Both the position numbers and the translations under genes were made by a program. A stretch of DNA of 64,000 nt from Nereocystis luetkeana. Taxonomy: Eukaryota; Sar; Phaeophyceae; Laminariales; Laminariaceae. The first letter of the stretch is position 1. Each line of letters opens with the position of its first letter. Below the pieces are notes generated by a model that saw nothing but the letters and a program-made list of their open reading frames with translations, did not search any database and had not been told where the DNA came from. The DNA lies in assembly GCA_031213475.1 (NCBI GenBank), contig JARUPZ010000020.1, positions 7,081,630-7,145,629 on the forward strand. The letters are read 5' to 3'. Below are positions 4,101 to 64,000 of the stretch, piece by piece.

Positions 4101-7100
4101 TTTACTATCGTCCCCCATAATATTAATAGTGTGTCCCCAAAAACGGGGCTGCAGTTTTTGCCGTAAACGTTCCATACCTGGTACTCTACAATACCCGAAC
4201 AACATTGAATTGACCCTTTTAGGGCAAACTGCAGTCCCGGTTTGGGGACAACCCACTCAAATTACAAGTAGTTTGTCCCCAAAACGGGACTGCAGTACTA
4301 GTGATATGGGTTATAACCTTTTTAGTGCCGCACTATTACGGGGGACCATGCCTGGTAGTAAATAGGACCTACGGTAAACACAAAAACCTACATATTTCCC
4401 CATTTTTACCAAAAACATTTGGTCCCGTTTACTATGGTCTCCCCGCAATAGTGTGCATGAACCTAAATCTGACTCTGATTCCAAGTGTTTTTTGTCCCCA
4501 CAATGGAAGCGCAGCTCTAAAAGGCTTTTGAAGCGCTTGAAAAAATATCATCCCCTGCCTCGTAGGTGTACATCGAATAATATTGCGCAACCATAAACGG
4601 GCCACGTACGTACGTAGTACCGGGTAGTTTTCTCACTTGAGGGAGTCCCATTCCATCAGTCAGAAATATTGCCTCATAAGGCAAAAAAAAGTGTTACCCC
4701 TAATCGTGACCCCCCTATCTCGGAGCACGTGCCCGAGGAGGCGTTACCGAGTCACACGCGCGGGGGGAGTGGGGACGCAAACCGGTTACACCGCCTTACC
4801 GCGTATACACAGTGGTGGGAACCCCGACTTGACAGAGGGAACGCTAAGAGAATAGTGCAGTTAAGAGAGGCCAAAATCGGCTGGACCCGCTCACACTTGA
4901 CGCTGTATATTTCCCGCTGCTGAGCACTAGAGACTGGGGGGAGTGATTTTTTTTTTTCGGCCTGTACCACACCCCTCTTAGCTCCAGGTACCCATGTAAA
5001 CCGTGAACAGTGAATCGTTTGGACTTGCACCAAGTACCGGTAACTTTGTAAAAAAGTGCTCGAGGTTTGTTGTTTCAAGCGCACGGACTACGTAGGCACC
5101 GGTAGACTGGTGGATAATAGGAGCTGAGTACTCTGTACGACAAGCGTTTTTTTAGAAATCAACAGTTGCTCGGTAACACAAAGGAAAATGATCCTTCGTT
5201 AAGTTGAGGACTTCTATGTCGGATAGGGGTTCTGCTAGGGGCAACGGAATGCAACCAATAGCTTTGAACATTCCACCTTCCCCTCTCTCGTCTCCACATT
5301 GGACACGGAAGCCGAGGGGGGTAGGGCCTCCACCACCGCATGACGAAACAGCCGATCCACCCGGGTGACAAAGCTTGCGCCGTGCATGCGGTGGCATGAA
5401 ATGGCATCGTACGGCGGCCTCCAAACCTAAGCCTTTTTTTTACTGCTGTCGAAAGTACCTCCACAAATGCCAAGTGGCGCGTCCTCACAGACGTGGGCGC
5501 GGTTTCTGAGCCGGCATGGCTCCTTTCCCACCAGGTCCATCACCGAAACCCACGCACGTACTATGTGTGCGTAGATATAAAATATTGTTCGAGGGCTGAC
5601 AGTGAAAGCAGAAACATCCGAATCTCCGCCGATCGTCTCGGCCTGACGCCGAGATCCGTTCACCTTCAAGGTCGGGCTTCGCCCTTTCTTCCCGAGGATC
5701 GCGTTCCTCGGCATCAGCCCCGCCTATTCCCGCGCACACGCTTTAGGGGGCGCACGACGCCGCCGAGCGTAGCGACTCTGAACAGCGTGGACCTTGCGTG
5801 TCGTAGATGGGGGAAAAAAAAAAAGATCGGCGTTGTTTCTTGGAGACGGCGAGGTTCTCCACCGTTCTGGTCCGGAGATATATTCATCTGTTTCCTCGCG
5901 CTGCGATCTGTTTTTTTTTTGGTTTGCTGTCGAACGAGCTTCGATATCTCTTCTCTTCGATTTCTCGGTCTCCCGGTCACGCCCTTCATCTACCGGCAGC
6001 CTCCCTGGGCGGGAGGTCGCCTCTAACCTTTTCCACCCCCTCCGCCTCGCCTCCTCGGGACACGAGTACTGCTGTAGCAAGGCAGCGAAAACAGAGAGCA
6101 GTGTTTGACCAGTACATTACGACAACAAAAACTCGGCTGAAAAAAATCCAGGGCACCACTTTGGGCGTAAATATAAGGAGCGTTTACATAGTAATATGAA
6201 TACACAACGGCCCTCATATTTCCGCCCAGAGTAGTAAAATATTTTCGCGGGTTAGTTCATAGCTATATACCTTTTCGCGGTGCAATTCCTGTACTATACA
6301 GCAGCAGTACTCTGCTGTGTACGGTAGTAGTACTGCTGCAGTATATAATACATGTCGTTCTGCTCAGAAACGAGCCCGAGAGGAACGAGATATAGGTGCA
6401 AACATGGGCTGTTCCTGCTGTATATATACCCCAAGAACTGAACCTCTCTGGAGGGGCGAGAAATCAGACTTGCTGCAGAACTGAGGAGTTTCAGAAATGA
6501 CGATCACGAGAACGGAGATCATAAATTTGCGAGTGATCAAGAATCTCATAAAATGCGCCTGACTTGAGAGAGAGACTGCTAAGGGGATACCAGGTATCAC
6601 ACGAGCCTGAGAGAGACGTAGGACTACTGCGGTCGGAGTAAACGTTTGCAAAACGAGGGCGAGGATTGAATACCAGAAAACATCGAGCCCGATAAAACTA
6701 TACTGCTGCTGTCGTGGTGAATTAGACTGCTCTGGCTCCTGACGCACTTGGCAGTTTACCTTCATCCTAGAATGCACCACTACTTTCGGCATTGCTGGGG
6801 TTCATTGCTCCAGTAAAAAAGGTCATTTGGCATTCCCCTCTTGGTGCAACACTTGGCATTGAATTGATCCTGTACATATAATCAGATCTCGGAATATGAT
6901 TTACACTGAGAGGTATATTTTCCTATCGAAGCAGGGTTCCGGCATGGCGGAGCCCCTGTACGAAGACAAAACTTTAAAAAAGACACGAAGCTGTGAGATC
7001 GAAAAAATATCCAGGCTGTTTCCTAGGCGATTCAAAATTTGAGATTCAGATATTGACCCGATCGCATTTTCAGCTGTGAACTTCGCGAATCAAAACAGTC

Positions 7101-12158: not shown

Positions 12159-13244
12159 GTGAGCACCGGGCTTCACGCGGGGCGGGCGACGGGGCTGACT
12201 GTGATAGAGAGGGAGGAAAACCTTACCCAGACCGAATCGGTGGCGAGGTGGTCGCGAGAGGGGCGGTCAGCGTACGAGGCTGAGAGAAAAGCTCTGCTAT
12301 CCATTTTTTTTTTTTCTTTTTTGACTGGTGCAAGGTGTTCCAATCAGGCAGAAATTATTATATGAGAGGGGACGGGGTTTATGAGAGGGGACGGGGTTTT
12401 TAATTATTTCCGGAATTTCGGTTTCATCTTCATTGTTTTTGCGGTGCTGCTGCTGCTGTGCCGTGCTGTGCTTTTCCTTTCATGCATACCAGGTTACGTA
12501 CAGTACAGCATATCAAAAGAAGAAAATAAATACCCTACCTGGGGTATGTATGTACGTACGTACGGTATGTGAGGGTGTGTACACACGCACGGCACGTGAC
12601 TCTTGGCATTATCAAGTCGCCAATTTGCAATCACAACAATCATAAAAATACATATACTCGAATTCAATCATCGACCTTCTGTCCGCTTCGCGCTTCGCGT
12701 AATTCGATGTACTTTTCCTTCCTGAGCGATCGCAGCGGGCGGCGTAGGCCACCCGCGAAGCGAAGCGCCTTGTAAATTACTACAATTCTACTTAACTTTA
12801 CACCCTAAACCTGACCCTAAGCCCAACCCGGGAACGGGTGAGAACTCTCTAGGAATTAACACGTAAAGATAGTTATCACGGGGGGGGCTAATGTTGTAAT
12901 CAGAACCCGCGATGGAGGACCCAAGAACCAGGTATCCCCCATATTTACACATCACATTTCCTTCGGATCACAGCAGCTGGCGCCCGCAGTTTTAAGAAAC
13001 ATTTAAGAAACACAGCTCAACAGGGGACCAACTCTAAATCCCATACAATAGAGTTATATCAAGGCCGGAAAAAAAATAGGACACTGAGCCTGGACACCAA
13101 ATTGACGTTTCTTGACGCCGAGCTCCCACTGCTGTATGCCCCCTACGTATCATAGCAATAATAGAGTGGGAGATTGATCGTACCTGGTACGAAGTGGGAA
13201 AGCTGGGGACTGTGGAACGGGGTAAAATCTTGAGGGTGCGGTGG
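12159..13244. other. Unassigned, probably intron
   Basis: Expected to hold the continuation of the lumen-protein gene, but no further exon could be recognised. Two copies of gagaggggacggggttt lie at 12364-12399. A TACCTGGTA lies at 13181. Confidence 0.3.
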
Positions 13245-14626: not shown

Positions 14627-14654
14627 TTGGCATATAGGTCTAAGGTACCTGGTA

Positions 14655-15650
14655 TTGTTCTTAGCGATTAATAGCTACCTGGTATCATGGGAACGTCATT
14701 TTTTTCCGCGGCATCTCCAGCGACGACCCAAGAAGAAACACATGATCTGGCCTGGAGAACAGCGGTCTTTTAGTGAAGGCCTTTTCTTCATCAGTGTTGT
14801 AGCCGTTGTACTACGCCCCCCCCGCGCGTGAAATGAACGTGAAAAGCTTTTACAGGTGGGTAGCGATTATGAGTGCTTTTTTTCGCCACAATTGGCTCGC
14901 AACTTCGAATGCTGTACACGAAAGCACGCTCGCGAGTCGTTTCTGGCTGCCTGTGACGGCTGTCTCGCACCCCCGACGCCCTCACACACCCCATCAGGAG
15001 CACATCCCTCGATGTTGCGGACTGTAGTTTTCTGCGAGGAGCTGCTTTAGCTGTCCGCAAGTGAAGTGCAAACGTGCGATGATGGTGGCATTTTTTTTTT
15101 GTCTCATTTGGTGCATCCCAAATTGCGACCAAATTCGGCCACTGCAGCGCCCTTAAGGGTCATTCTTATCGGAGATATTTTCCCCCATAATTTCCATGTT
15201 TTTGTCGCGCAAAAAAAATAAGTCTTCCAGATTTTCCTTTGTTTTTTTTTCCCAACGTAGTATGTGAAATTCAACTTTCCTGATTCTTTTGCTTATTATG
15301 GAGAATTTCACAAATAGTGACAGAACTCCTCCGTATCTTGATACGAGGTACGTATCTCCAATTTTTTCCTAACTTTGGAAATTCTGGAAAAAAGTTCTCC
15401 GATAGGAATGAGCCTAAGTCGAGGCGTAGGCCTCTGCTGAGAACCTGCGACAGGGGGAATCTCGACAGAAACACAAGCTGCAGTGACGAAATTCTCTTGG
15501 GTCACGGTAGGCACGAACTAACAAAAGTTCTAAACACAGCGTGTTCGAATAGCAGTGTTCTTTTTTTTTTGTTCCGATAAACGATCTAGAGATTAGAGTC
15601 ACCGGAAACCCCGGGACCGGGGGATGCTTGGGTGCAGATAGCGTGGCCTC
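14655..15650 (+). repeat. D2 repeat copy A
   Basis: A long repeat matched by 27075-27890 (for example gtagttttctgngaggagct). Coding potential is not evident. Interrupted by an M3 element at 15154-15412 that is absent from copy B. Confidence 0.7.
15154..15412. mobile_element. M3 element inside D2
   Basis: Termini gggtcattcttatcgg and ccgataggaatgagcc. The empty site in D2 copy B reads ctcTTAAGTCGAGG, which gives a TAA target duplication here. Confidence 0.75.
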
Positions 15651-15652
15651 AA

Positions 15653-15743: not shown

Positions 15744-16441
15744 AGAAAGACGTGCTTGGTTAGGGGATACGAGGTACCTGGTACGCACGAGTAGAAGAGG
15801 ACGACGAGTTGAAATAAGGTTCCTGTTATGACCGGTCTGGGCTATTCGCCATCTGGGGCGCGGCCATATTCGGAAGCATAATTCGGCATTAATCCGAATA
15901 AGTTCCGAATTGTCTCGAAAATCAGGTTGACGAAACATTGCCACCCCCCCAGCACTCGCTAGCGCGCTCTAGAGAGCGCGCGACGGCGGCCCATGCATTC
16001 CAAAGTGTAGGGTGGACCCACCCCGAGGTACGCGCGCAAAAATGAACTCAATCGGCCGCGAGCAGCGCTCGCACGAAGCATCTAAAACATGTGTTTTTTT
16101 TTTCTGGCCTCGAAACATTGTCGCACACAGTATTAATTCTGAAAGATGAAGGGGGTTCCGACGGGTTTGAGCGCACCTACAACTCCTCGGACACGCGACG
16201 GAGAAGAGCTACCGAGCCAAGTAGGGAGAGCGCGCCAGAGTGCCGCACGCAGACCAAAGCGTAGCCTGTGAACACGATGTGCCGCTGGCGCAAAGACGGG
16301 CTTGATCGGGCGCGAGAGACAAGGAAACCACGTGTACTATTAATGGGCAAATTGCGCGAAGCATACACGGCAGAGTACACGAGACTGAGTGGCGACTGAC
16401 TGACAACGTATGTCTAGACTAGTGCCATGATGACTGAGGCT
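15744..16441. other. Unassigned stretch
   Basis: No gene recognised. A GC-rich imperfect hairpin (gcgcgctctagagagcgcgc) lies at 15961-15980. A TACCTGGTA lies at 15775. Confidence 0.3.
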
Positions 16442-16923: not shown

Positions 16924-16925
16924 TA

Positions 16926-19550: not shown

Positions 19551-19627
19551 CTGGCCATACGAGTAGCTATTACCAGTACATATATCTTACCAGGTAACTG
19601 GTACCTGTTGTTGTTCTCTCATCGTTG

Positions 19628-19724: not shown

Positions 19725-20005
19725 TGTAGTCCGTGGTCGCAGGACAGGCTCCAATAACTCTGGAGTGGAAGAAATCCCTCGGTAAAAATAAAGCAAGCAC
19801 ATAATAGTGCACATGATAACTTGAAGCACATCTACACCTCAGACCACATATTATACTACCCAGAAAAAATAGACAGGATGAAAATGACAACTCGACTGCT
19901 GTGTACCTGGTACTAACTCTGTCCCGAAATATAAACACCTTTTGGTTCAACAATTAGACTAGAACCGGTGTTTACATGATGGGACAGAGTGGTACCTGGT
20001 AAGTG

Positions 20006-20053: not shown

Positions 20054-20069
20054 TACCAGGTACCAGGTA
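20054..20069. repeat. Tandem TACCAGGTA unit
   Basis: Two overlapping 9-mers sharing TA (TACCAGGTACCAGGTA). Confidence 0.95.
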
Positions 20070-22934: not shown

Positions 22935-23021
22935 TCGCGGAGGGCCATAGTAAATACCTGGTAGGACCTATGGTACGCTTTACCAACAATAGTTGGTCCT
23001 GTTTACTATGGCCCCCCGTAG
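22935..23021. mobile_element. M1 copy carrying a TACCTGGTA insertion
   Basis: The left arm catagtaaata is split from ggacctatgg by CCTGGTA at 22957-22963. There is also a ~25 bp internal deletion. Confidence 0.88.
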
Positions 23022-25057: not shown

Positions 25058-25981
25058 AAAATAGGGGTGGCGGGAGCCCCTTTGAGGCTGGGCACTGATT
25101 AGATTTTCCCCGCTTTTTTTTTACAAAGCGGTTGATTTTGGGTGATGCCTGACGATGCCGGACACCCTTCGTGCAGAAAATCTGAAGCCGGACCCTACTG
25201 TATCTACTGCTGTGTGTGCAGCAGAGAGGGTCCCACTTTAGTGCGATGCACTTTAGTGTGGTACCTGGCACAATTTTAATTTTCTGTCGCTCCTTCCCTT
25301 CCTTGTTGGAGCTCGCCATGTTATATTTCCCCAAACAACGCAGTAACCTTTTTACAGTAGGAGGACCTCAGTGTCCCGTTTATGGTGACATACGACTCAG
25401 AATTTTGTGCGGTTTGTCCACAATTTTGTGGTCGCTTTCTTCAGCACAGCACACTCAAAACTCACTAACCCGAACGGGAACTACTATACTGTACCAGGTA
25501 CCTGGTATAGCTTTGCCCATGCCTACCCATGTGACCTCTCTCAACCCTTTTCTTACTACTGTGCTGCACTTTATGCGCGGTACATACAACGTATATCCTG
25601 GTAGGGGTTTAAGAAAAAGTGCACGCTTGCCCCGATACCCAAAACAATCTAAATAGGGCGTTTCTATACAGATAAAGAGGCGTTTTTCTGCCGGGGATAG
25701 AGGTCTTCCGTCTAGGCATAGAGATATACCTTGACAGACAGACAAGCAGGCAGCTTGACATTGACATGTCTCCTGACATGTTTGGCCCCAATTGGCCATC
25801 CCCATCTATGGCTTAAGTCTACATCGAAAACTGTTGACAAAAAATAAAAAACGATAACGCATGACGTATTGGAACGTTTACATGCTAAGGTGCACCAATT
25901 TTTCTTCTGGGGTTCCTCACTTCGACGAGCTCCATACGATTAGTAAGTTATTAGTAAAGTCACACAAAAAAAGCTGATTCT
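25058..25981. other. Unassigned stretch
   Basis: No gene seen. A tandem TACCAGGTACCTGGTA lies at 25492-25507. Weak M2-like traces (aggacctcagtgtcccgttt) lie near 25362. Confidence 0.3.
25492..25507. repeat. Palindromic TACCAGGTACCTGGTA
   Basis: Two TA-CCWGG-TA units in opposite orientation sharing the central TA. Confidence 0.95.
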
Positions 25982-32215: not shown

Positions 32216-32229
32216 GTCGTTTTATCCGC

Positions 32230-32245
32230 TACCAGGTACCTGGTA
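32230..32245. repeat. Palindromic TACCAGGTACCTGGTA
   Basis: Tandem inverted pair of the 9-mer, just left of an M1 copy. Confidence 0.95.
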
Positions 32246-39815: not shown

Positions 39816-40562
39816 ACGAGTGTGTGGAGTTACCAAGAAGAGTTACGGCATATACACCAATCAAGGGAGGTGAAGTTAGTATGTACCTGGTATAGTTGTA
39901 CATAGATAGGTATGCTGCGCATCTATCTGTCCGTGTTCTGCGGTATATTACGTGCGTCTCACACGAAGGAGATTATTTCTTGTCTTTTGACTGGCATCCT
40001 CTTTTCTTTACTCGCCGTGTTATTAGGTACGAGTATTGGGAAGCTAATCGAACAGGCGATGATGGATGATGAGGAACAGCGAGGAAAAGGGCGATGTGGG
40101 GGGGTCAATCAGGCGGGGGATAAGAAGAGGTGGCAGCTTTTGGTTCGCAGAGTGAAGAAGAGAGAGATGATCATCCGTCCTTGGGCGGGTTGCTATTAAT
40201 ACATCGACTACAAATTGCAACAACTCTTCTACTCTTCTACCATCTATCTCCGCCTCTCACAATATCATGCACATGCAACCCTCAGCTTAACCCCCCCACA
40301 GCCACAGGGCACCGTTTTTTTTTTTTGGGCGGTTACCACGGCTGGCGGTCAAGTTAGATAATTTTTGTGCGGGGGGGAACCTTTACTCCGCACAAGGGGG
40401 ATGATCGTATCACGTACGTGGTGTGTATATGGTGAGGCACCCACGAGACAGTTATTACAAAGCAACTCCATTGCCGTCTCTGGAAGTTTCCACACCAGAA
40501 ATTAAATCAACTCGTTGAAGCTGTCATCAATATATATATGCAAGAAAACCCGTCTCTAATTT
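39816..40562. other. Unassigned stretch
   Basis: No gene recognised; TACCTGGTA at 39884. Confidence 0.3.
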
Positions 40563-42355: not shown

Positions 42356-42423
42356 TATTATACCAACCCACCGGAGGACAAAAACGTACCAGGTAGTATT
42401 TAGTAGTATACCAGGTACCTCGT

Positions 42424-42482: not shown

Positions 42483-45342
42483 AGAAGCGAATTACACGAC
42501 GAGGGATAAATACCTACAGCAGTACCTCTTCCTTGTTGTGGTATAGTATCGGGAGAAGAGAAGCGGAAGAAGACTGCCCATGAGAAGCCACGTCTTGCTG
42601 GGAGTGAGGGTGACTCGCGGGCGTTGGCAGCGTGATATCAAGTCGCACTTTCGACGGAGGCATATAATATGCATCCATGGAAGAGTGGGGAGCGGCATTG
42701 CGCTTTATTGCAGGTAGGTCTGCCCTGGTACGATCTTAGCATCTTCGTGCCTCCTGGCGGATACAAAGGATAAGGATAGAGGGTAACCTCGTTGTGAAGA
42801 ACGGCATAAAAAAGAAGGGAGGTAAGATTTAACCAGACCCCAATTCTCGGCGGTGGTTGTTTGTGGTCATTGTTTTTTTGCGTGTTATTTAATAATGGCC
42901 TATGAATTTGAAAATAAAAACAACAACTATTCTCAAAAAACGTAAAAAACATATATATATCAGGCATACTCGTTAGCAAAGAAAGCGAAAAAAGCGAGAC
43001 TTTACCAAAAATATAGTATGACAACAAACAAGACGCCAAAGCCAGAGCAAAAAAAGCAGACAGAGCGGGTGGTCGTCCCGTGCATCCACCAGATCAATAT
43101 TTGACACCAAACACAGATCGCGATCAACATCCATCATTACTTCCATTATCTGTGGGACGTGACCTGAAACTGCCCCACGTGTGTGTGCACGCATCCCAAT
43201 CGTCTAGAGCAGAAAAAAAAACACTCGACTGCCCCCACCCCCACCGCGCTACCTGGTACATTTGTAATGATCCGTTCAATGCAAAGAAAGGACTCCTAAA
43301 GAAAACAAGAAATCCAATCCCCGACAGTGCGCGGATTTCTCGCTGGTCTTCGCCATCTTCCTTCCACCCCTCCCGCCTCCACCTCGAGTCCAAACCCACA
43401 TGATTGCGGTCGAAAATCGAAAAGAAAATCGCCGCAGCACTTCATTAAAAAGGAGGCAACGTCTATTGTAGGAGAGTCTTACAAGTAAAGCTCGAACGTT
43501 ACTTTTCTGGTGTGTGGGAAACGAAGGGGCTGCAACACGACTGACTAACTAGGGTGTGTGCGCTGCGTGCTGCCGCAAAAAAAAAAAATCAACGAAAGAA
43601 AATAATGGAACGACCACAAAAGAACAGGTACAACATACACAGTAGAAGTTGGCACTCAACGTTCAACTCGGAAGCGTATGTACCTACCTATCTACCAAAC
43701 GTGTACTGTAGTAGAGTCAGTTCCTCTGGCCGAGAAAAAAAAGGCGATCGATTTTTGAATCTCACCCTTCCAACCTAGAGATTCCAAAACCAAAAAACAA
43801 CACGGGCACCGCCCTCGGCGGTCACCACCCGGACGCGAGGCACTCAAATGAGTACTACTACGCGTGTGCTACCCTACAAAACCCACTGCCACATCCAAAT
43901 AATTCATGGGCACCTCCGGGAAGCCGGCCCCGCGCGAGAGGCCAAAACAAGCAAAAAAGGCACGATCATTGATTGGCAAGTGCCCTCCCTCTTTTCTCTC
44001 TTTGCCTAGCGTGGGGGGCATCTTTTTACTACTGTATTTTTCGCACAAGGGTAAACATGCTGCAAGCGCTAAGGGCAGCAGAACACACCAGCCAGCGAGC
44101 GGCCTTTCATGCAACCTTTCATGCTTTCGTTTCAGGAAACTCGGGAATCTACGCTGTTTCTCACCCGAATTTGCGTGCGCGCGCATGCGCCCGGCACGCC
44201 TGCATACCGGACGACGCCCCCCCCCCCACTCCTCCGGCGTACCACACGACTAGGAGCTTATAAGCCTCCTCCCACCTCCGGGGAATTGGGAGAGGGGACA
44301 AAAGTAGGTCAAACAACGCCATTCAAGGAAAACTACGGTTAAAACATCAAAGTGGATTTCGGCGGGGGAACAAGAAAAGACAACAACAATCTCGTAACTG
44401 ACTGAATTTCGTCTCCCCTCATAAGTCTCCTTGAACCGCAGAAGCGCGCGTTTGAAAATACAAACACACGGCTCGCTCGAAAAAAAATGGCAGAAGAAGC
44501 ATGGGAGGGGGGGGGGGGCGCGCTCTGAAAGAGCGCGCCCCTCCCCCCTATCCATGCCCTCTCACACTCGACGCCGACGACTCAAGGTCAACGGGCGTCG
44601 ATGCGGACATGGGGGACACCTGAACTCCCCATGGAGCCTGGAGTCAGCTTGTGTGCTCCCTTGCCGCAAGGCCAACCACTAGCTTTTGTATGACTCCCAT
44701 CCAGTCCCCCTTTCCCTCTCCCAAATCCCGTACTCGTTCGTGGAAAACTCTAGCGCCTCATCATCCTTCTACCACCACCTCCCCCCTCCCTCCCCTCCCA
44801 TCACTCAAAACCATCATCTTTTCTTCTCGTCAACCGAAAAAGAGAAGAGGAAAAAAAAGAATACGGAACAAGAAAAAAAAAAGCTACGGATTTCATTTCA
44901 CGCGGCTGTACATTTAAAGTGCCGACAAAAACTCGAAAACTTGCGTTTCCACGCACGAACGAACGCACGCACGCACCACACGATATGGACTGGAGGTGGT
45001 GGGGGGGGGGGGGGGAGGTCCAAGGGGACGTAGCTAGCAATCTACCAGTGGGCGGCACCCACACCACGCCCCCCCCCCCCCCCCCCCCCCTTCCCCAACA
45101 CCCCTCCACCCCAAGGTACACTCATCATTCCCCCAACATCCAAGGACGTCCGCAGCAAGCTTGCCCAGCAAACGCAACACACAAGGAGAGAATTACAAGG
45201 CACACCAAAACTAAGCATCACCCCCCCCGCGCGCCAGGCACCACACCGCCGCACCGCACCGCCCCGCGCCCGCACGCACACCCCAATAAAACGCACGGAC
45301 CGAACCGCGGACCGGATCGGAACACAGGAAATAGGAAATATC
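42483..45342. other. Unassigned intergenic stretch
   Basis: No gene, RNA or repeat family recognised. GC-rich hairpin ggggcgcgctctgaaagagc at 44515-44545; G run at 45001-45016 and C run at 45069-45091. TACCTGGTA at 43250. Confidence 0.4.
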
Positions 45343-45941: not shown

Positions 45942-48900
45942 CTAAACGGGACAGAAAAAAAGGAGGCCGAGGAGAGGACAGGGGGGGGGGGGGGGCTTTC
46001 AATGAGACGTAATTAATAAACAGATAAAATACCGGTTTCAAAGGTTTTGTTCAGGGCACGTGGGTACACTTATGGTTTTACCGACTACGCCTGACGTTCA
46101 TGGTTACAAAGTGCTGTGTTCGTTCGTACCGGTAGGCTTCTTTATGTTCTTTCCGATTTCATGTTATTTCTTTCGCAATCAAAATGACGGGAAAAGTTCA
46201 TCCAGCAGGGGGAAAGCGTCCACTTCACAAAACAAACGTGAAAACTACCCGTGGGTTCAAATTGTGAAGCTGTTATATGTACAAGGCAACAATGATGTCA
46301 TACAACTAACGCGCGTTGCGTGCGGGCTTGACCATTGCGACAAAAACCTGAAAACTCACCAGGAGTGTCCAGCTGGCAGGGGGCGGTGTTGGTGACGGAG
46401 CAGAGCTGGCCGCTCGTCGCGATCGTCGAAGAGCAGCAGTCGCTGGCCTCAAGCCCGGGGATGTTGCCGCACCCGGCACCGCCGCACTGGCCGCACGCGG
46501 ACAAGCAGCACACGTCACTGCTCTCGATACCTTCCAGGCCATTGCTGCAGGTGGAGTTCGTGTCGGAGGCCACTGCAACAAAGACGAAAATGGTCAAGAA
46601 AAACGTAAAAAAGGCAGACGGGTTGGGTGGCGGGGGGGAGGAGCGGTGAGTGATACCTCGTAGGGGCGGAATAGGATGTACCTGGTGTGTAGTGTACATC
46701 AGCAGATGAAGACTCTGCGGTGCCGGGCACTGACGACGGCGCCAAGCTTCGAGTGAATCAACCAACCGGTAAAGTTCTGGAACTCTGTTTTGTTTTACTT
46801 CTCACTTCGGTCAGCGGAAGCAACGGCCAGGTCGGACAACAGAACAGGTAGCCTCTATTTAACGCTATTTCCCTACTATATAATGATAGACGCGCCGCTC
46901 GTCATTGCTGGTGTACCCACCTACCTACCCAACCCGCCCTATATTTGCTGTCGAGGAAATCGGCGTGGAAATTCGTGCGAGCGGGAGGGAAGCGCGATAA
47001 TAAACAACAAAAACAAGAACGAAACCCGCGTCAAATAATTTCCTAGCCCCACGTAGGGTGAGGGTGGTTAGGACTTCGTTCCCGTACTGGGGGCAAGTCA
47101 AATTCCAAGCAGTTTGTCTAGAACTAATGTGATTAGTTTCACCTATTAATGTAGTATCATGTACGCCGAGTACGTGGCCGAGGGAGGGGAGGTGGTCTCC
47201 CCCCCCCTCCGTGCATTGCAGTTCGAAGGCATCCTCTACATATATAGCCCTTTAGAGAACCGCCGTCCCATTTCGGGGACAACTCACTTGGAATTTGACT
47301 GGTTTGTCCCTACAACGGGACTGCGGTTCTAAACCAGCCCGGGCGGGGGGCTTTGGCTGTTACGCACGCGTGCGTGCTCGCTCATGCTGTAAATAATCGT
47401 TACCAAACCTTTGGGACAGTCTCGTCCGACACAAGCCGAAGCAGCCAATGCTACTGCGAAGTACGTAAGCAATCGTCACACAAACTCTTTAGCTTCGGTG
47501 CTCGACGTAATTTTCTCACCGGCTTCCACAACGCAGGGGGCCACGCCGGTGTCGGCGCAGGAGGCTCCCGCCGCGATGATGTTCGTCGCGCAGCACTGGC
47601 TGGCATCCACGCCGGCGATAGACCCGCACCCCTCCCCTCCGCACGCATCTCCGCAGATGAGTGGGCAGCAGACATCGGTGTCGGGGTCCTGGACTCCGGT
47701 GAGCCCGTTATCACACTGCGAGTCGTTCGACGCGGCGGCTGGAATTTCAAGGGCCCACGGAACGAAGGCGGACGGATAGACGTGTGCGAGGGAGTTAGTG
47801 ACGGGCAACGAGCAAGGTTCGATTTGCAATAAAGCCAAGAGGGTGCTCAGCCGGGAAAGGGAGCGCGTACGGGTGTGTTGTTATTTTACACCTGGTCCAT
47901 GTTTCTATATACAGCTCAATAATTTGAAACATCCAAAAATGGAAAAATTCGATACGTGAGTAACCGATACGTGGCGTGGGCGCCTCAACCCAGAGTCGAA
48001 GCAAGGTGAGGGTCAGTCAAATCATCAAGCCATCAACAGTATGAAATACAGCATACAGCAACGATCGTGATTACAATCCATGAAAAAAAAAGGGTGACCA
48101 CTTCTTACGTATTAATAGCTACCAGGTATCTACTATTATAGCTATGGGTATCTCTTTCGCGCCATGTTATTATCGCGACAAACACGCGGCTGAACAACAT
48201 ACACGCGTTGCTCTCTGCGCTAAGATATCTTGTCCGACTAATGACAAGTACCTAAAAAAATATTTCACTTTTTCTCGATTTTTTACCGCGCCAATGAGAA
48301 AGGTGCATACCAGGTACCAGGTATTGTATTATTTCCAACTGATTATTTCCTTCCGGTATTCATGAAAAACTACAAAATAGGCGTGACGACCAGCTCGCGG
48401 ACCCCCGATAAACGTATTTTGACGCGTATTATTGGGCGATACGTACTTTTGGCTTCAGTTCAGATGATACACAAAAAATAATACGCAGCCAGCTCAGCAT
48501 ACACAACTGAGCAAACGCTCGCCATTTACGCGTAGGAAATTTGTGTGCTTGCTTGATTGAGTGTGCGTGCGCGCGCGCCCGTCGAGCGCGTTGGATATTC
48601 GGGCGCGCGATACGCTACGAGTCCCTGAGAGGTGAAGTGTGTTCTATCTGGAATAACAACCAAAACAGGCCGTATGCGAGTCTCTAACCATAAGCGATGC
48701 AACGACGGGAGCATGTGCATATATATATCCTGATACTTAACCCTTTTAGAACCGCAGTCCCATATGTGGGGACAAACCAGTCAAAATTCAAGTAGTTTTG
48801 TCCCCAAACGGGACTGCGGTTCTAAAGGGGTTAACACAGCCGGCCCACAGCCAGTCAGCGCGCACGATGCAGGGCAAAACGTCAGGCGCAAAAAAAAAAA

Positions 48901-51791
48901 GACGTCGCGACAACTTTTTTTTCACTTTTAATACGCAGCTTTGAGGGTCTCCCTCCATGCAGGACCAAGAGCAAAAAATACAATCGGTATGAGACTGACT
49001 ACGAGTAGTATTATTACCACCAACTAACTGATGGGATGAGACGTGAAAGGAAAAGGGGGTGTATGAAAAAGGTCGGCGAATGTAGGAGACAGACGGTGAG
49101 GTGACCTGCTGCTTCCTACCGGTAATTTTTTTGTCCTATCGAGCTGAGCAGCTCCGCGAGCGATTGGAAGAAAACAAGTCGTATCGAGAACGCACGCACA
49201 CAAAATAACACCTGAGCGCAAAAAGAAGAAAAAACTCAAGACGCACTACAATCAACTCACTCCACTGCCGGCATGCATGACCTCGTATATATGTCACCAC
49301 ACGAAAGCCCGGAACTACCCGTACAATAAACATCCTGAACTACCCGTATACCCGTATACCTGGTATAGTGCTGCTGCAGTTTGAGAATATACAGCATACA
49401 GCAGTAGTCACGACTGATATAAAGGAGATATAAAACCTACGTGCGTATCCGTATCCTACGTGTGTGGTGATGCAAAGAGCAAATGCAATAGAACCGTCAG
49501 CACGGCAGTAGGTCAAGTAGAGGTCCCCCTGCAGGTCCCTCTGCAGGTCCCTCTGCAGGTCCCTCTGCAGGTCCCTCTGCAGGTCCCTCTGCAGGTCCCT
49601 CTGCAGGTCCCTCCATATATCCCTCTAGAGGGCCGGTAGCGCTTGGCACAGATGGAGTGGTATCATCGCGTGGGGAGGCAGTACAGATAGTGACGGTTGC
49701 CGCTATATATATAGTGCCGGTAGTCGTGGGTGACGCATATTACATGTTCGCTCGGGCACTGCGATTGCCGCTTAAAATAGTGCCGGGACTGCTGTACTAG
49801 ACCTGCCGCATGTTATGGCCATAGTTAACAGGACCAAATATTGTTAGTAAAAAAGGTTAAACATGGGTTTTTATGTGTACCATAGGTCCTGTTAACTATG
49901 GTCCCCCGTATTAGTTCGTATCGAAACCACGAATAACAGAGGGTGTGGTGTTACTACTGCTGCACAAAAAAACTCACATGTGGTGATGATGCAAGGCGCG
50001 ACCCCGGTGTCCGAGCACAGCGCTCCGGAGTCAACGATTTCGGTGGCGCAGCAGTCCGCCGAGGTCAACGTGGAGTTGACGGGGGTGCACCCCACGCCGC
50101 CGCAGGTCCCGCACTCCGCGACACAGCACGCGTCCAAGCTCGAGGCCTCCACGCCTGCGATACCGTTACTGCACATCGACTGCGCGCCTGCGTGACGACA
50201 CACCAACAACAACCACACGCGTGACACAAACGGAAAGAAGCGGGGAGAGAAGCAAGCCACGAAGACGCAGGGGGGGGGGCAGGGGATGGTTCAGCCATCA
50301 CATGCACAGAAAGGCAAGAGATAAATAAAAATGACGGGATAACTGAGTAAAGGACAAAAGACCAAAAAAAAAAGGAATTGTGTCAAGGGAGGTTGAAACA
50401 AAACAAGGAAGCACGGAGGTCAAGCAAGCGGAGAAGGTTGAAAATAAAAAGCACACCACAAGCAATATCCGGGTCCCACGGCAAGTCAAGCCCGTTCGTC
50501 CGTCGCGTGTCGATGTGTCTGTCCTCTACGATCGTACGAACTACCAAGTATTACACATAAATAGTCTAGTCACAGGTGTTCAAACCACTTGCTCCACTCA
50601 AAACGTCAGCCAGGAGAAACATACACACGTCCAAGGAGACAACTGACACACAGGCGCTACAATTACAGGTACAACTACGTGCACGTGAACGAATATATAG
50701 GGGACATGTACAGGCATCGCATTGAGCGAAACCCAGCTTGCCAGCATTTCCTGCTACACGCGAGCACGACGAGGCATCGCATACTTGACCCCATGCTACC
50801 CCAGAGGGGGTGTGTATCGAGTATCGAGTAGAGACACCGGCAAAGAAACAAAACGAAAAAATGTAGGAAAAAGCAAATAATTATCGTCTTCAATTTGTAG
50901 ACCAGTCAGTATGCACCAAAAGGAAGGAACAGAGAACGGAACGAGAGCTATTTTCGCTGAATCGACCATGAAAAGCGAGAAAAAAAAAAATACCTGGAAC
51001 CTCCGTCCGCAACGGGCAAGGGAAAAGTAAACCAAGCGCATGCTGGAGGGAGCAGCAACTTCAACAAGGACCCACATCTCGAACCCTACGTACGAAGACT
51101 CGGGGCGCCTCGAATCGAGTTGAGCGGCGTCCATACCGGGACAAGAAGGGGCGTCGATCTATAAATATAAATAAAACATACCAGGTAAAAAAGACCGCAC
51201 AGCAGAACCCCAACCGCTCAAATATGGTGATGACGATGACGTGATGATGTGAGAGAGCCAAAAAAATAAATCGCAAAATAGATAGAAGGAGGTGGAAGAG
51301 GCGGGCCAGGCTACCCAAACCAACCAGCCAACCCACGAGGAGATTTGTTGAGAAGAGAGTGCTCGAGACAAGCAGGCAAAGGCTATTTATTGATGGGGAA
51401 ACGATGTTGCAAGGTGGTAGCTGAAACTACCGGGCAGGCGTACGCAGCAAGCTGCTCCTGATGGCACCCTAGGAGACGAGAGACGATAAACGATTTTTGG
51501 TTTCCAAAAGCGGGGGGCTACGTGCTCGGCAGTACGTTCTCGTACATACATACACACAAAATATAGGCGAAAACAAGATGTCGCGACTGCCGTGCCCGTA
51601 GTCCCAAGATCTCGAAAAAAAAAAGTTCCATCTGTGTGTGTGATGATTATGCAAAAAGAACGATTTCCGTTTCCTACGAGAGGAGTCGAGAGGAGTTCGC
51701 TTTCCGCTCTGTGCTCACCGGCCGGGCTCACGGTGCCCACAAACACCAGGGTCGCCCCCAACAAAGCTGCCATGCTCATCTTGCCCATCAT
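45343..51791 (-). CDS. Secreted protein with four ten-cysteine modules (complete)
   Basis: Five exons (51791-51719, 50187-49978, 47738-47520, 46572-46360, 45941-45343) give 437 residues plus stop. Every junction is phase 1 with AG acceptors and GTGAG donors. Residues 1-24 are a signal peptide (MMGKMSMAALLGATLVFVGT). Four modules of ~62 residues follow, each with ten cysteines in the order C..CC..C..C..GGxGC..CC..C..APC, suggesting five disulfides each. Exon 5 carries module 4, then a Thr/Ser/Pro-rich stalk with APT and SRG repeats (about residues 315-405), and ends in a hydrophobic segment (GGLVTLAAMAGGVFAIFAAA) that fits a GPI signal or membrane anchor. The likely location is the cell surface or cell wall. 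I have seen similar cysteine patterns only in uncharacterised stramenopile proteins and assign no function. The introns contain M1, M2 and minisatellite sequence. Confidence 0.88.
46360..46572 (-). CDS. Ten-Cys gene exon 4 (module 3)
   Basis: 71 codons; acceptor ttgcag, donor GTGAGT; phase 1 at both ends. Confidence 0.92.
47062..47119. mobile_element. M2 remnant in intron 3
   Basis: ttcccgtactgggggcaagt and ccaagcagtttgtc remain; the ends are lost. Confidence 0.5.
47246..47338. mobile_element. M2 MITE copy in intron 3
   Basis: Arms gaaccgccgtcccatttcgg / aacgggactgcggttctaaa. Confidence 0.8.
47520..47738 (-). CDS. Ten-Cys gene exon 3 (module 2)
   Basis: 73 codons; acceptor attccag, donor GTGAGA; phase 1 at both ends. 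Confidence 0.92.
48737..48834. mobile_element. M2 MITE copy in intron 2
   Basis: TTAA at both ends; near-consensus. Confidence 0.92.
49515..49614 (+). repeat. 12 bp tandem array in intron 2
   Basis: CAGGTCCCTCTG repeated about eight times, almost perfect, so probably young. Confidence 0.95.
49814..49912. mobile_element. M1 MITE copy in intron 2, left end lost
   Basis: Starts at tatggccatagttaacagga; right terminus intact. Confidence 0.85.
49978..50187 (-). CDS. Ten-Cys gene exon 2 (module 1)
   Basis: 70 codons; acceptor cacgcag, donor GTGAGT; phase 1 at both ends. Confidence 0.92.
51719..51791 (-). CDS. Ten-Cys gene exon 1 (signal peptide)
   Basis: 24 codons plus one base before GTGAGC. 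A hydrophobic core follows MGKMSM. The second ATG (51788) would serve equally well. Confidence 0.85.
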
Positions 51792-53335: not shown

Positions 53336-54654
53336 ATCAGACCACTTATGGGAAGGTATATATATGTACGATAGAAAATCGCAAATCACGAAAAAAAATC
53401 ACAAATTTTGAATTTTATTGTGGCGATGGGTGGCATGGGGTCCGCATGTATGTGTCCGGATAAAACAAACATACCACCCCGCCTGGCTGGGCGGAAGTAG
53501 TGTGTACCAGGTATGCCATAATTATAATATATTAATTACCTGTGGTAATAAATAAATAATGGTACTCACACGCTCCTTATATGCATTCGTGGTATGCTTC
53601 ATCCCTCCTCGTGCCTATCTAGAGTGTGTGTGCACTCTATGTATGTGCTCTGCTTCTCTGCCGCGGGTCTGTGCCTGTGCATCGAACGTTCTCCGCGCAA
53701 ACATTTATTTATTATTTACCACCGTTCGTAAAATTACACTATATATATGGAAAGCGTCATCAGTGGACGTATCTAACAAGGGGCACCGCCCGACCTGCCT
53801 ACGATCGATGTAGACATGAGATATATATTTAAATATGTCTGCATGACCCTCCAAAAATATAGTGTCATTAATATTTGCAGATGAATGGCATGTTTTTGTT
53901 GTTTTCTTCGTTTTTGTTGTTGTTTTTTAACTCTCCTGGTTGATTGTTGCAGGTTGTTGCTTTTTTTTCTGAGTGCCTTTTCGCCGGACGCTGTGGCGGG
54001 ACACACGCCACATGATGCACTGGCTACTACCAACTACTGCATGCAGCAGTGCTGCTGCAGCTCAGCTGTGTGTACGTACCTGGTATCCTGGCACATGTTC
54101 CACTGCTGCTGCTGCTTCTATTATTGCAATAAGGTTATCACTATCATTATATATATATAATAAGTACCAGCACAGGTATAGTATTCATTAATGTTAATAA
54201 TAGTGTGATAATAGGGAGGGGTATTTAATGTCGCCGTATCATATATTAATATGATCTCTCCCGTCTCACCCGGTAAAAACACATTTTGTTATTATTCATT
54301 CTTTGTTGATTAACATCTAAATTCAAATATCTATTAGTAAGTATACCTGATATATAACTCAATAATTGCGCCGTCGGAACACACCCTCCTCTCTGGACCA
54401 CAAAAAATAAAACACGTACGTACAACATACACATCCCCTCTCTGCTTGCCGCTGCTGGCGCGCTGCTGCTTGCTGCTGCTGTTGTTGGTGGTGTGGTATC
54501 CGCTTACCAGTGGCTGCGGCGCACAACATATAAAAAAGAGAGGAAAATACCTACTACTAACACTATACGTACTTCCGTACGTAATACCTGATGGTCTATG
54601 GTCCACCTGGTTGCAAAAAACCGTTCTGACAAAAAGACCATATTATTATCACTC

Positions 54655-55013: not shown

Positions 55014-56846
55014 TCTATAGCTGGTTTCATAACGAATAGCAACTTATAGACTTGGCATGATACGAGGGATCTCCGTCGTGTTCCCCGAGCTGCTGCAGTG
55101 AGTAAAGTATGCAGGGGTATGTATATAGACAGCTATAAAATTATTACTAAAAAAGCGGGCACCAACGAGAAAATGGCAGGCTGAGATTTGCAGCATGAAA
55201 AGAGAATTTCGCGAGTCGTTTGTATAAATAAATATTATAAATATTGAAGTGGCAATAATAGTAGTAGTTTACTACGTACTGCAAAACCTACACATTCTCG
55301 AATGCACTGCAGAACCTACCCATTCTCGCATAAAAACCCCAGTCTGGACTACACAGACAGCTTTCCTGCGGTTCTTGATAGGTATATTTGCTGTGTGCCT
55401 GGTACAATATATTGGGCTTCCTACTAATAATATGGTCGGCTCAACGATCCGTTATGTTATGATACTGTCTGTATCACAGTGGTACCTTATAGCCAATGGA
55501 ATAGATATATATGCAGAACAATGGCAAGAGAAGTAATAATAATAGATATGCAGAACACATCATCATCGCCTGGTAGGAAAAGAGAACATTCCAGCCTGAA
55601 TCGATATACCTGGTATACTCTCTTTTTCTTCCTCACCTGCTGCCTTTTCCATACAACCTTCCGACAAGGCATACGACACCAGCACCTACCAGGTACCTGG
55701 TATTAAAGATCTACCTTGCGTGATCAAATCCTAAATCCACACCCACAGGCTCCCCACGCCACATCGTGGTTGATTGCCTGTCAACCACCCCCCCTCCCGT
55801 AACCCCCCCCCCCCTCTCCTGCGCTCTCTAGTCTCCTGGCGACCCTGCCCACAATGGAGCGTAAAGCGAGACACCCTCCTGTCGACATGGCCTGGTAACC
55901 GAGACCAGGGTTATTATTACGCGGCCAAGCCGTGGTGCGGCCCCCGGGCCACACCACGAGCCAGAAAATGCCGGGAAAAAAAGGGAAGTTTTTACGTGAT
56001 TGCACTCAAGATGCGCGTCTCGCCCGCTCTCTTTTTACGCTCTCGGAGTACGCGGACGTCAGGCGGGTGTTAAGTGCAAACAAACAAGTTAATAAAGCTA
56101 TGATTAACTTAAGCAAGCACGTCTAATGCCACTTGAAACACAAAACGTTCGCGGCGAAACGGACGAAAATGTGTGTGTTTCGCCTCCTCGGTGAAATAGT
56201 TTTCGCCTGCGGCGAAAAAGGGTGATACCCTTAGAAATACACGTGCGGAAATCCGCACGTTGCCTCCAGCGGATATTGAGCGGAAGTCTTACGAAGAAAG
56301 TGCACCAGCGCACCGCCGCACCGCGAAGCCTCAAGCATATCCCTGACCGAGCCTACAGAGTGTCTACGAGCGGTGCTCCATACATATTATCTTTCATAGC
56401 AAGGGGCCCTTCATTTCTTCCGCCCACTGCCCTTGCCGCTAAGTAGATGATCAATGAAGCTGCTACCTTCGCTCCCGAGAGGCGCAAAGCTTTCCACCGC
56501 GAAAGTGACTAACTTGTGGCTGCGCTCGCCGAGGACACTTGCTTCGGGCGAGCGTAATGTTGGCGCTTGTGCGCCTCGGAGATAGAGGCAGCTGATAGGT
56601 TATGGTTTCTCGAGCTCTACCAGGTATACATGTTCCTCGAGCTTTGCGATCCCGCATACCAGGTACATGTATGAACGTTCTGCCTAAACCCGATCTATCG
56701 CCCAAGTTTAGGGGGAGCCTGAATGTGGATGGGAAACGAAACGCCCACCACGCAGGTGTCCCGGCGCTTGCGGGTCTGTGTGGGCTGCATCTTAGAGAAT
56801 GGTCTTTTTGCGGTACTCCAGGTTCGGCGCGTCCCAAAGGGCTCCC
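55014..56846. other. Unassigned stretch with one coding-like short frame
   Basis: 55967-56126 (+) is an open frame with plausible composition (SLFTLSEYADVRRVLSANKQ) but no family match. Palindromic pair at 55687-55702; single 9-mers at 55607, 56618 and 56657. Confidence 0.3.
55687..55702. repeat. Palindromic TACCAGGTACCTGGTA
   Basis: Two units in opposite orientation sharing TA. Confidence 0.95.
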
Positions 56847-57970: not shown

Positions 57971-60900
57971 AAGACCCCGACTCAGTTTTCTCAGTAGCAG
58001 CGGACATTATCCCTGCTTCCATAGATGGCACCCCCCCAACCCTCCCGTCCCCGTCGAAAGACGCGCTTGGACTTGCTGATGAGGCTGTAGTGTCAACTGG
58101 TAACCCAGGCCCCCTCCTGCCTCCGCCGCTCCCGGTAGCTTGAGGATTTCCTCGTATTCCCACTGTACCCCGTTGTGTGCTCGCCTGCATGCCTCAAGGG
58201 GCAATACTCGCATCCAAGACACGGCTCAGGGCGGCTTGTTCTCTCTCTGTCCGCGGGATTCGATGGCGATGCGATTCGCCTCTTGCCTGTCCGGCATGTC
58301 AGCGAGGCAGCGCGCCAGTCGGTCTGCGCCGCCGTCTAACACAACCCCAACCGCGCTCTCAACAACGTACTCTCCTCTGTGCCGGTCGGGACGCTCACCA
58401 TCCTCACCCCTCCTTCAGCATTTGCGGACCGTCGACACCTTCCAGGAGCGAAACCTCCTCCACCGTCGGGGCGTATCATTTCGGGGGTAGCGGCATTGAT
58501 TGATATTCATATCATACATGTTCCAGCCCGACAAAAATCGAATACGTTATATTGTCGAACAGCACACCTTCCCTACGAGATGTCTAGAGGTTGTTGACAA
58601 GACGACTGCTACGCACACTATTTTCCGGGACCCGAATGAAAATGAATCATGGATTACTACATTACGATTAAGCATCAGTAAAAAAAAGAGCATGAAAACA
58701 TCAACAAACCGACAAAATAAAACACGTCCGTTCCCATATTTCTACTAAGATTGCGTAAGAACTTCTGAGGCGAAAAAAACTCTCAACGTGCTTATCAACA
58801 GCCGTGTGCCGTGTATCCTGCCTAACTGGTACTTCGTACCTGTGGTGGTGTATTCATATTGTGTTTTCGTTTTTGAGCTCTTTTTTTCAGTGCGTGTGTA
58901 CTTGGTGTGATTTAATTGTTGTTGTTGCCGTTGTTGTTATCGTTGATTCCCTTAACGATAAAGTAGCCGCCTGCGGTACGATCGCCGTCTATAGGTGAGC
59001 TATGAGCTATGTACCGAGCGGGACACCCACCAACAGCGGCAGTTGCCGGTACTTTGTTTTGGCGATCAGTGACTACTGGTACTTCAGGAGGTGAGGGAGT
59101 CACGAACCAAGGCCGAGGAGGTCACGAACCAAGGCCGAGGAGACGGCCAGCATGTACAAGGACGGGGGAAGGGGGGCGGGGCGTGAAACAGACACCGAAC
59201 ATCCCCGGTACCCCTGCTGCGGCCAAAGGGTTCCAGACGACTTATCTGTTGGGAAGTCGGAGGAGAACCTCATACGTACATACGGGCACCCATCTGTGCG
59301 CCCACGGAAGGTTTGCGCACCACACCCGCGGCATGTTGGAGCATTTGTGACACCTCGCGATAGAGCATTTCGACCCCCTAGGCCCTACGTTGCATGCCGT
59401 TTTGAGTGGCCGGGGGAAAACTGACCCCTCCCACCTGCGGAACCGGCTATAATAGAGGGCTTTCTCATTATGACCGAGCCCGGGGGGGAAGTGGGCGGCG
59501 GTGAGGGGCGCCATGCAAACCGCCAACCCCTACACCGGGGCGTCACCAGACCGGAGCCGACCAGACACCGACCATACACGACGTCTCCGGTGGGCGGGAC
59601 CCCCGCATTGCACAAGGTGGGCGTAAAACCAACCTTGCGGAGGCGTTCAACAATGGCGCAAAACCCGCGAGGTGTCGACAACCTCTCAATTCGGTACGCA
59701 TAGTGGGCTATGCTACATTGTTCAACGTCTTTACAGTTTGTTTTTTTCGCGTCCACATTTTGCAAGGGGGAGGGGGGAGTCCCGGTCACCTGGGGTGCCG
59801 ACCGGCGTTCATATCGCATTCGAGCGCACGGCGCGCGCCTTTGAGGGGAGCCCGGAACCACCTCTTCGTTTATCTTGTGCCCCCTGGTCAGCGGTGCTCT
59901 GGGCCTGCCTTAAGGGGTCTTATCTCAATGTATACCCCGTCCGAAAGAAAGGGGAGCGGCCGTCGATCGCTACCGAGGGGGCGTGCCTGACGGCGAGGAA
60001 GGCGCTTTCTTTGCGTGTAATTTGGTTTTCGTCTTTGTTTACTTGTATACCAGGTATGTGTCTTTCGTTTGTTTACTGGTGTGTTTGTCTGTGTGTACGT
60101 CCTGACTGTTTGTTCGTTTGTTTAGTTCCGCTTAGCTACCGCTTTTACCGTGCGCTGTTCGCCGCGTTCGGGATCCGGTCACAACAGGATCTACATATTG
60201 CTTCGACTACATACCAAAGCCGGAGCTCCACTACTGCATTGGGACCTCACGCCCGGGAGGCATATCTAGCGGAGGGCCGCCCCGACATAGGAACGCCTCC
60301 ATCAACTCCTACAAGCGAAATGGATCGAGCTACTGCTGTATGTATATACTGCCCGTGTGAGGCGCTCTTGCAATAGTTGACCTCGTTTCAGCAGCACGGT
60401 AGATGCGGTACGGTACGGAACGGTGCAGTTCGGTTAACCGTTTTATGACTGCAACAACAATGATCCCACACTAATTCCTAATAGTCTGTCCGGTTCTACT
60501 GCAAAGGGTTAAAAGTGATCTGAGTCGGGGGCGTAGGCAAACCAACTGCCTTCGCTTGGTCGGAGGAATGCCTGAAGAGATGGACTCTTGTGGCCCCAAA
60601 ACGATCCCCCCCGGGGTATACACAAAACGCGGATAGGAGGAGGGGAACGCGCTGCAGCCTCTTTTTCCGGTAACGGTGGCGGCTCTACAGGAGAGAACGG
60701 GCCAGAAGTCGGAGGTGACGCGTGCTTGCCTCAGCTCTTCACTTAAGGAATTTCCATGCCTCACGCCGATGCATGCTACGGTAGAGGCGCACCTAGTATT
60801 TTTCAGAGGCACCCCTCACGCGACGATCTCATTACCCCCCCGCCCCCCCCCCCCCCGGAACCCGAAACCTGGACCTCGAAAAAAAAACCGATGCAAAGCC

Positions 60901-63090: not shown

Positions 63091-64000
63091 CATCGATTGG
63101 GCACTTGCACCTGCACACACCTGCAAGGGTTATCATCAATCGGTTTACTCGCTCTTGTCATCGAATAATTGGTACTACAACTGCTTGCTCATAATAAAAT
63201 CGACTGAAACACTCGATGTGTTCATAAAATACAATTGTGGTCAACTTTCAGATCTGACCTCTGACCGTGCTCGATATGGGATGACAACGCAGTGTATGTA
63301 CGCAGTATATTGCAAACGTACCTGCTGAGGTACAAGCATGGTCTATACACATGTCTTCTAATGAGAACAGCTAAAATAACACACGCGGTACACGCTAACT
63401 ATGTTTAGTGTACACAACAGCGAACTGTTGACAACATTTTACCAGGCAAGAATAATAATTGCACATTACATATCATATCGTACCACATACTACTTGGTAA
63501 TAGATGCAGGCTGGTGGCAGGCGGAACTTTCAGCTGAGAAATTACCGGTACCCTACAAAATAAAGACCCTTGAGCGCATATTTTAGGGGCGAGGCGGCAG
63601 GAGATCGGAACCCATCAGCTTTTTAGCATATCGTGTGCGCAAGTGTGTACTGGTTTTGTACTACGAGTATGTAACACCTTGTTGATGTATGCTTCCGATA
63701 TTTATTTCCCATCTCACTCCAGCTGAGAGTCAACGACCCCCCCCCCCCCCCCCCCCCCGCGAGAACCCCCCCCCCCCCCGGGAAGAAATGTTACTCACAC
63801 ACTCTATTCTGCCTACCAGGTACATGCCATGTAAGTATAGCAAGAAAAGGAGATTTTTGGCCAACTCTGTACCGGCACCTGCGTGTGTAGCATCAAGTTA
63901 TATTTGCATGTGCATCATCCACGAGCGAGTGAGCATGCTCGCAATGACACACCGGTGATACCAAGGACGGAAATTTAAGGACCGCGTTGGCCTCGTAGTG
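63091..64000. other. Unassigned right edge
   Basis: No gene recognised. C runs at 63739-63780 and TACCAGGTA at 63814. Confidence 0.3.

Follow-up and report, generated by a model that had tools for sequence, protein, structure and literature searches.

Sleeping Beauty and Frog Prince leave C(A/T)GTA as their excision footprint according to PMC3878927, and PMC7827188 describes 3-nt 3′ overhangs for Tc1/mariner elements, with footprints identical to the overhangs. A footprint range of 2–4 bp is quoted for Tc1/mariner in PMC7913693, and those of Stowaway/Osmar5 are described as 1–4 bp fragments of the terminal inverted repeats (TIRs; PMC1925063). We compare these systems with a nine-base word, TACCWGGTA (W is A or T), that is scattered through a 64,000-nucleotide stretch of the Nereocystis luetkeana genome (contig JARUPZ010000020.1; hereafter the window, C20:7081630-7145629 in a genome of 465,085,209 bases and 1,987 contigs). 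At TA sites the word forms a scar of seven bases, and transposon excision is its most likely origin. Such scars are ordinary in kind, and what is unusual is the length of the footprint, its number and the missing source.

A first-pass annotation of the window had held that no known feature type describes the word, which was too strong, since the footprints of Sleeping Beauty and Frog Prince as given in PMC3878927 have the same grammar. The likeness lies in the TA target, the A/T alternatives at the centre and, on the reading favoured below, an overhang-derived footprint (PMC3878927, PMC7827188); the difference is that their footprint has three bases and this one five, and that element and transposase are known there whereas only scars are read here. 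Stowaway/Osmar5, as described, also leaves short TIR pieces between duplicated TA, with several footprints and re-insertion beside a footprint at one site, but these are 1–4 bp long and come from few loci, in contrast to a fixed five-base core and 182,395 words here. The internal eliminated sequences of ciliates, which target TA, offer a parallel in very many excisions that leave joined sites, whereas the present scars retain 5 bp of what are presumed to be element ends and are read in assembled sequence alone. No earlier description of TACCWGGTA or its scars was found among the titles and abstract openings covered in one open-access library.

TACCWGGTA as an insertion at TA

All 38 positions given by the first-pass annotation are exact, none was missed and there is no 39th; the roughly 0.5 occurrences it expected per 64 kb agree with about 0.45 from a first-order Markov chain. 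Markov expectations were computed on a 264-kb sample made up of the window and 20 random 10-kb stretches, in which the word occurs 150 times against 1.86 expected from a first-order and 2.7 from a second-order chain. The random stretches alone (200 kb) hold 112 TACCWGGTA, ranging from 0 to 19 per stretch, versus 6 TACCSGGTA. Genome-wide (465 Mb) there are 182,395 words, one per 2.55 kb, versus 1,744 for a reversed-pattern control; a count near the Markov background, which would have spoken against the word, was thus far from what was found. The window scars are as follows, all strandless (.) and identified by exact word match except where another basis is given.

4175..4183, scar TACCTGGTA
4349..4357, probable decayed scar TGCCTGGTA in a copy of the TTACGGGGG miniature inverted-repeat transposable element (MITE); up to 6 aligned paralogues are 7 bp shorter
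6588..6596, scar TACCAGGTA
13181..13189, scar TACCTGGTA
14646..14654, scar TACCTGGTA
14676..14684, scar TACCTGGTA
15775..15783, scar TACCTGGTA
19588..19596, scar TACCAGGTA
19904..19912, scar TACCTGGTA
19993..20001, scar TACCTGGTA
20054..20062, scar TACCAGGTA, double unit 1
20061..20069, scar TACCAGGTA, double unit 2
22955..22963, scar TACCTGGTA
25492..25500, scar TACCAGGTA, double unit 1
25499..25507, scar TACCTGGTA, double unit 2
28812..28820, scar TACCTGGTA
32230..32238, scar TACCAGGTA, double unit 1
32237..32245, scar TACCTGGTA, double unit 2
33551..33559, scar TACCTGGTA, right TA adjoins a TTACGGG MITE end
38542..38550, scar TACCTGGTA
39631..39639, scar TACCAGGTA in a repeat with 3,707 matched copies; word match and site-occupancy test (100 copies)
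39884..39892, scar TACCTGGTA
42387..42395, scar TACCAGGTA
42409..42417, scar TACCAGGTA
43250..43258, scar TACCTGGTA
48120..48128, scar TACCAGGTA
48308..48316, scar TACCAGGTA, double unit 1
48315..48323, scar TACCAGGTA, double unit 2
49357..49365, scar TACCTGGTA
51179..51187, scar TACCAGGTA
53505..53513, scar TACCAGGTA
54077..54085, scar TACCTGGTA
55607..55615, scar TACCTGGTA
55687..55695, scar TACCAGGTA, double unit 1
55694..55702, scar TACCTGGTA, double unit 2
56618..56626, scar TACCAGGTA
56657..56665, scar TACCAGGTA
60048..60056, scar TACCAGGTA
63814..63822, scar TACCAGGTA

Alignments bear out the earlier proposal of a 7-bp insertion rather than a substitution, the comparison being between copies of repeats within one genome and not between strains. 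The scar occupies nine bases, and a paralogue was called empty when it had exactly two bases there, mostly TA. In a first alignment 24 of 183 scar sites were comparable and nine had at least one empty paralogue, versus seven of the 102 comparable sites among 600 sampled control words of the form TA-N5-TA; an enlarged set of loci made 53 of 214 scar sites comparable, 11 with an empty and 43 with a same-length paralogue. Among non-microsatellite gaps between paralogues, CCWGG lay in or beside 15 of the 41 that were 7 bp long (in a few of the 15 the word stands beside the gap), versus 3/89 at 4 bp, 7/43 at 5 bp, 6/53 at 6 bp and 4/30 at 8 bp, some of these neighbouring-length cases being the same events aligned differently.

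Occupancy of single sites gives the same picture. One repeat with 85 matched copies carries TACCWGG at one TA in three of them and is unscarred in 82, as it is in six further copies outside the matched set. The matching patterns demand exact anchors no more than 30 bases apart and would therefore miss any copy that contains an intact element. Matched copies of the repeat that surrounds window site 39631 number 1,875 + 1,832 = 3,707, and the site was read in the first 100, all on contig C1. Where the target is or was TA, 8 of 20 copies are scarred, whereas none of the 79 with CA is (Fisher p 7e-7); the single copy with AA is also unscarred. The eight scars comprise three CCAGG, one CCTGG, one TACCTGGTACC, one double CCTGG, one decayed TGCCTGGTA and one TACCAGTA, and since they differ in kind, this hot TA was hit or resolved several times. 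TACCWGGTA therefore arises by exact 7-bp insertion at TA, and TA is required.

The scars share with Tc1/mariner insertions the use of TA and its duplication. A piggyBac or PIF-Harbinger origin was rejected: the flank is TA only, with no fixed third base, and not a duplicated TTAA or TWA. At non-double sites the base before the scar is a purine in 80% and the base after it a pyrimidine likewise, with an excess of TA seven bases away. On 108 of 297 scar sides another TA stands beyond the next five bases, and CCWGG or a one-base variant lies between in 44 of them; as the remainder, lacking a CCWGG-like core, is still above background, nested scars and a TA-N5-TA preference are both likely. Words with a single change number 122 against 46 expected, beside 150 exact ones, suggesting about 6% decay per site, and the commonest change is TA to CA or TG (47/122).

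Centres of A and T stand at 71:79 in the 264 kb, and C or G is rare (7). Three copies of one repeat, 95% identical over 3.1 kb, carry CCAGG (L036), CCTGG (L037) and bare TA (L038) at the same TA, and agree in centre at five other shared sites. Scars at C1:2216285 (T) and C7:10737437 (A) have an extra ATA unit beside them in common and opposite centres, and in another repeat L029 and L030 differ in centre from L031, while L033-L035 are unscarred there. The five overlapping pairs reported earlier in the window are real, and such doubles (TACCWGGTACCWGGTA) number 15,917 genome-wide versus 2 for the control. Opposite-centre units adjoin in three of the five window pairs. Both units have the same centre in 40 of 59 listed doubles (hand count; three are copies of one repeat), and the order CCAGG-CCTGG exceeds CCTGG-CCAGG by 14 to 5.

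A probable excision footprint and its rivals

Three causes had been put forward for the word: an excision footprint (TA + 5 bp + TA), a minimal inserted sequence, and a binding or methylation site. We favour the first and consider it probable that TACCWGGTA is the footprint of an excised TA-targeting cut-and-paste transposon. Such an element would insert at TA, duplicate it and later excise. If its transposase cut the transferred strand at the element tip and the other strand five bases inside, each flank would keep a five-base 3′ overhang, CCAGG. Two such overhangs annealed in full register would pair at four of five positions around a central A:A mismatch, and repair of the mismatch to A or T would yield TA-CC(A/T)GG-TA. 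The A/T alternatives in the Sleeping Beauty footprint are likewise read as A:A mismatch repair. Opposite centres at one TA would then reflect independent excisions of one inherited insertion, each resolving the mismatch separately, although two independent insertions would also explain them. A double may form when the TA of an existing scar becomes the target of a new insertion, and some doubles probably stem from duplication of the 7-bp unit. We infer from the scars an element with CCAGG(G) ends, a 5-nt stagger in its cuts, the polarity of the overhangs and the origin of the variants; an element end would read CCAGG, perhaps CCAGGG. By analogy, the source behaves like a Tc1/mariner-type transposon, and we do not claim membership.

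The overhang model makes predictions for variant words. Occasional four-base cuts would give TACCAGTA/TACCGGTA and six-base cuts TACCAGGGTA/TACCATGGTA. Cuts four bases in would produce CCAG/CTGG, CCGG and CTAG, whereas CCTG is not predicted; cuts six bases in, if the sixth base is G, would produce CCAGGG/CCCTGG and CCATGG; and genome-wide TACCAGTA should exceed TACCTGTA, and TACCAGGGTA should exceed TACCTGGGTA. Observed counts over second-order expectation in the 264 kb are 34/9.6 for CCAG, 22/4.9 for CCGG and 9/2.8 for CTAG, while the unpredicted CCTG stands at 11 against 12.3 expected. The six-base variants give 7/0.8 for CCAGGG and 3/0.3 for CCATGG but 2/0.8 for CCTGGG, and the unpredicted CCAAGG occurs 3 times against 0.6 expected. 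TACCAGGGTA (CCAGGG) is an 8-bp insertion at TA in two of four testable sites; the sole insertion evidence for TACCAGTA is the one copy at the hot TA of the site-39631 repeat.

A second TA-inserted word, TATTAATA, occurs 70 times against 1.9 expected in the 264 kb and is empty in paralogues at three of five testable sites (L004, L031, L038); its window sites have no empty paralogue themselves. It is probably the excision scar of the resident TTACGGGGG MITE, 75 of whose 83 ends in the 264 kb adjoin TA, and we count it in favour of an excision origin for TACCWGGTA. The resident MITE differs from the missing element in that 29 complete copies stand beside the 70 TATTAATA. In the window the word is recorded at these positions.

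4121, 9118, 22025, 30851, 37471, 37808, 38527, 40194, 41561, 41898, 48110 and 54244, TATTAATA

Other candidate words were tried and rejected. TACGAGTA, TACCGTA and TAC(A/T)GTA are over-represented and have an empty paralogue at 0/14, 0/26 and 0/13 testable sites; TATCATA, TAGTTAATA and TAGAGGGTA at 0/10, 0/4 and 0/11. TAGGWCCTA has one in 12, at L018 8801, where a small tandem duplication is apparent.

Several observations weigh against the excision reading. The main footprint class, at 5 bp, is outside the 2–4 bp range that PMC7913693 quotes for Tc1/mariner, and since element and transposase were not seen either, the scars are not filed as a member. Empty paralogues were found for TACCAGTA (CCAG) at 0/7 and for TACCGGTA (CCGG) at 0/4 testable sites. 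Unpredicted TA-N4-TA words are enriched too (CGAG 69/10.3, CTGC 37/7.6, CAAG 28/9.5), so enrichment alone marks no scar; CGAG is enriched yet has an empty paralogue at 0/14 testable sites, and the CTAG excess may stem from TAG microsatellites. Part of the doubles may be duplications, because both units are same-centred in 40/59. Finally, the source itself did not appear. The suggested search for an element with CCWGG-type ends found no intact element among 985 TACCWGG...CCWGGTA pairs (<5 kb apart, 288 kb), and partly matching arms occur in only three of these pairs, 36–46 bp long and each built of complete scars. Nor did a 50–80 bp family emerge that ends in CCAGG followed by any base but T, the count being 82 versus 261 for its control. 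Pfam DDE_3 (PF13358) had no match among 30 candidates scored, its controls being detected in 3 of 14 genomes, and Transposase_1 (PF01359) had none among three, its controls being likewise silent. A sequence beginning TACCTGGCCACTTTTCGGCC (C1:4415207 and six other places), considered as a mariner end or source, was rejected as an internal part of larger repeats.

The lack of a source in the 985 pairs and in the 50–80 bp search speaks for a minimal mobile or templated unit, in which an enzyme would itself insert the 7 bp at TA in either orientation, with no longer element. Random orientation of a CCAGG unit would also give equal A and T. However, the A/T asymmetry of the variants (CCAG versus CCTG, CCAGGG versus CCTGGG) matches joined overhangs of one end sequence, an argument tempered by small numbers and by the fact that only the CCAGGG insertion is confirmed in paralogue alignments. 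We know of no enzyme that inserts such a 7-bp unit, and we regard this explanation as unlikely.

Under an excision origin, the absence of an element from 288 kb would put fewer than about 4,800 in the genome (an estimate that assumes arms of at least 10 bases and an element under 5 kb), so that each element would answer for some 38 scars or more. A small and very mobile family could in principle have built up this number neutrally, as cut-and-paste transposition leaves copy number constant and scars accumulate. On that view few copies may have died in place, which is why programmed or near-obligate excision stays in consideration. It seems improbable, if conceivable, that a transposon with a 5-nt stagger leaves virtually every site, by programmed or near-obligate excision, so that ~180,000 scars stand beside almost no element, as with internal eliminated sequences but outside ciliates. 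As a rival account, in which the element resides in a different strain, life stage or nuclear stage and is almost always cut out of the genome sequenced here, we judge it very unlikely. The 182,395 scars without a recognisable element in 288 kb speak for it, as does the ~6% per-site decay, an age at which dead copies should remain recognisable. However, scar and centre vary between copies of one repeat, which ordinary germline jumping explains, stage-specific DNA was not seen, though no search was aimed at it, and excision in ciliates usually restores a single TA.

The third proposed cause, a functional motif (protein-binding or CCWGG methylation) kept by selection, draws on the strict consensus and palindromic symmetry of the word. 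It is contradicted by the tested sites, which are insertions relative to most repeat copies: the unit is a derived insertion in few copies and absent from others, which lends no support to a role in binding or methylation. The need for TA, the 8-bp variant insertion and the single-base decay, with TA to TG/CA commonest, point the same way, and we give this idea very little credence.

Slippage of a heptanucleotide tandem repeat (TACCWGG)n is hardly credible: tandem heptamers in 40 bacterial stretches and the same-centre excess among doubles recall it, but single units dominate here (182,395 words, 15,917 doubles), opposite-centre units adjoin in three of five window pairs, the bacterial words lie nearly all within an array with one centre throughout in 35 of 40 arrays, and single units at empty TA sites are beyond its reach. 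Those bacterial stretches (L048-L087) carry tandem TACCAGG/TACCTGG in unrelated metagenome-assembled genomes (Deltaproteobacteria, Acidimicrobiia, Chitinophaga, Gemmatimonadetes and others). They share the heptamer TACCWGG with the scars and differ in being mostly one-centred tandem arrays with few words outside them; the two look unrelated in mechanism. No triple of the heptamer was found in viral contigs.

If the excision reading holds, a footprint this long and exact makes excision scars countable genome-wide, where the papers considered here treat footprints per locus or per assay. The scars would durably document earlier jumps at a density of one per 2.55 kb, repeated hits of one TA included. 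Excision rate, the choice of target and the results of end joining could thereby be studied in the germline of a non-model eukaryote. Their abundance poses the question of the element's whereabouts, and a five-base overhang, if true, extends the 2–4 bp range quoted for Tc1/mariner. Searches for motifs in this genome would also be swollen by scar words, which could pass for regulatory or methylation sites.

Neighbouring transposons and other repeats

Two families of short repeats recur in the window.

16819-16925, 21639-21745, 27128-27234 and elsewhere, MITE of ~107 bp flanked by TA, its ends being TTACGGGGGACC...GGTCCCCCGTAA
4213-4310, 15647-15744, 16441-16538, 32975-33072 and elsewhere, ~98-bp palindromic repeat whose ends resemble TTAACCCTTTTAG...CTAAAAGGGTTAA

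The palindromic repeat resembles a piggyBac-type MITE with a TTAA target. At window position 31135, TACCTGTGTA has been inserted at TA when compared with MITE copies and may be an aberrant scar of a related kind. At 19904-20001 a short inverted repeat, CTCTGTCCC...GGGACAGAG, has a scar on either side, as though each TA beside a MITE had been scarred. We considered whether this inverted repeat, between 19904 and 19993, is itself an element with scar-like ends and did not adopt the idea, since its scars may instead occupy the duplicated TA of a MITE.

None of five window open reading frames tried had a Pfam match. Long inverted repeats at 31917-32868, with arms of 107 and 138 bp that are 100% and 92% complementary around a 468-bp centre, possibly represent another DNA transposon. 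A LINE-like element in L008 has a reverse transcriptase whose best relative with an organism name, 35th of 53 matches, is an Ectocarpus sp. protein (59% identity over 15% of the query), which makes a brown-alga-like host likely; the flatworm Spirometra, 50th at 30% identity, is the only other organism named.

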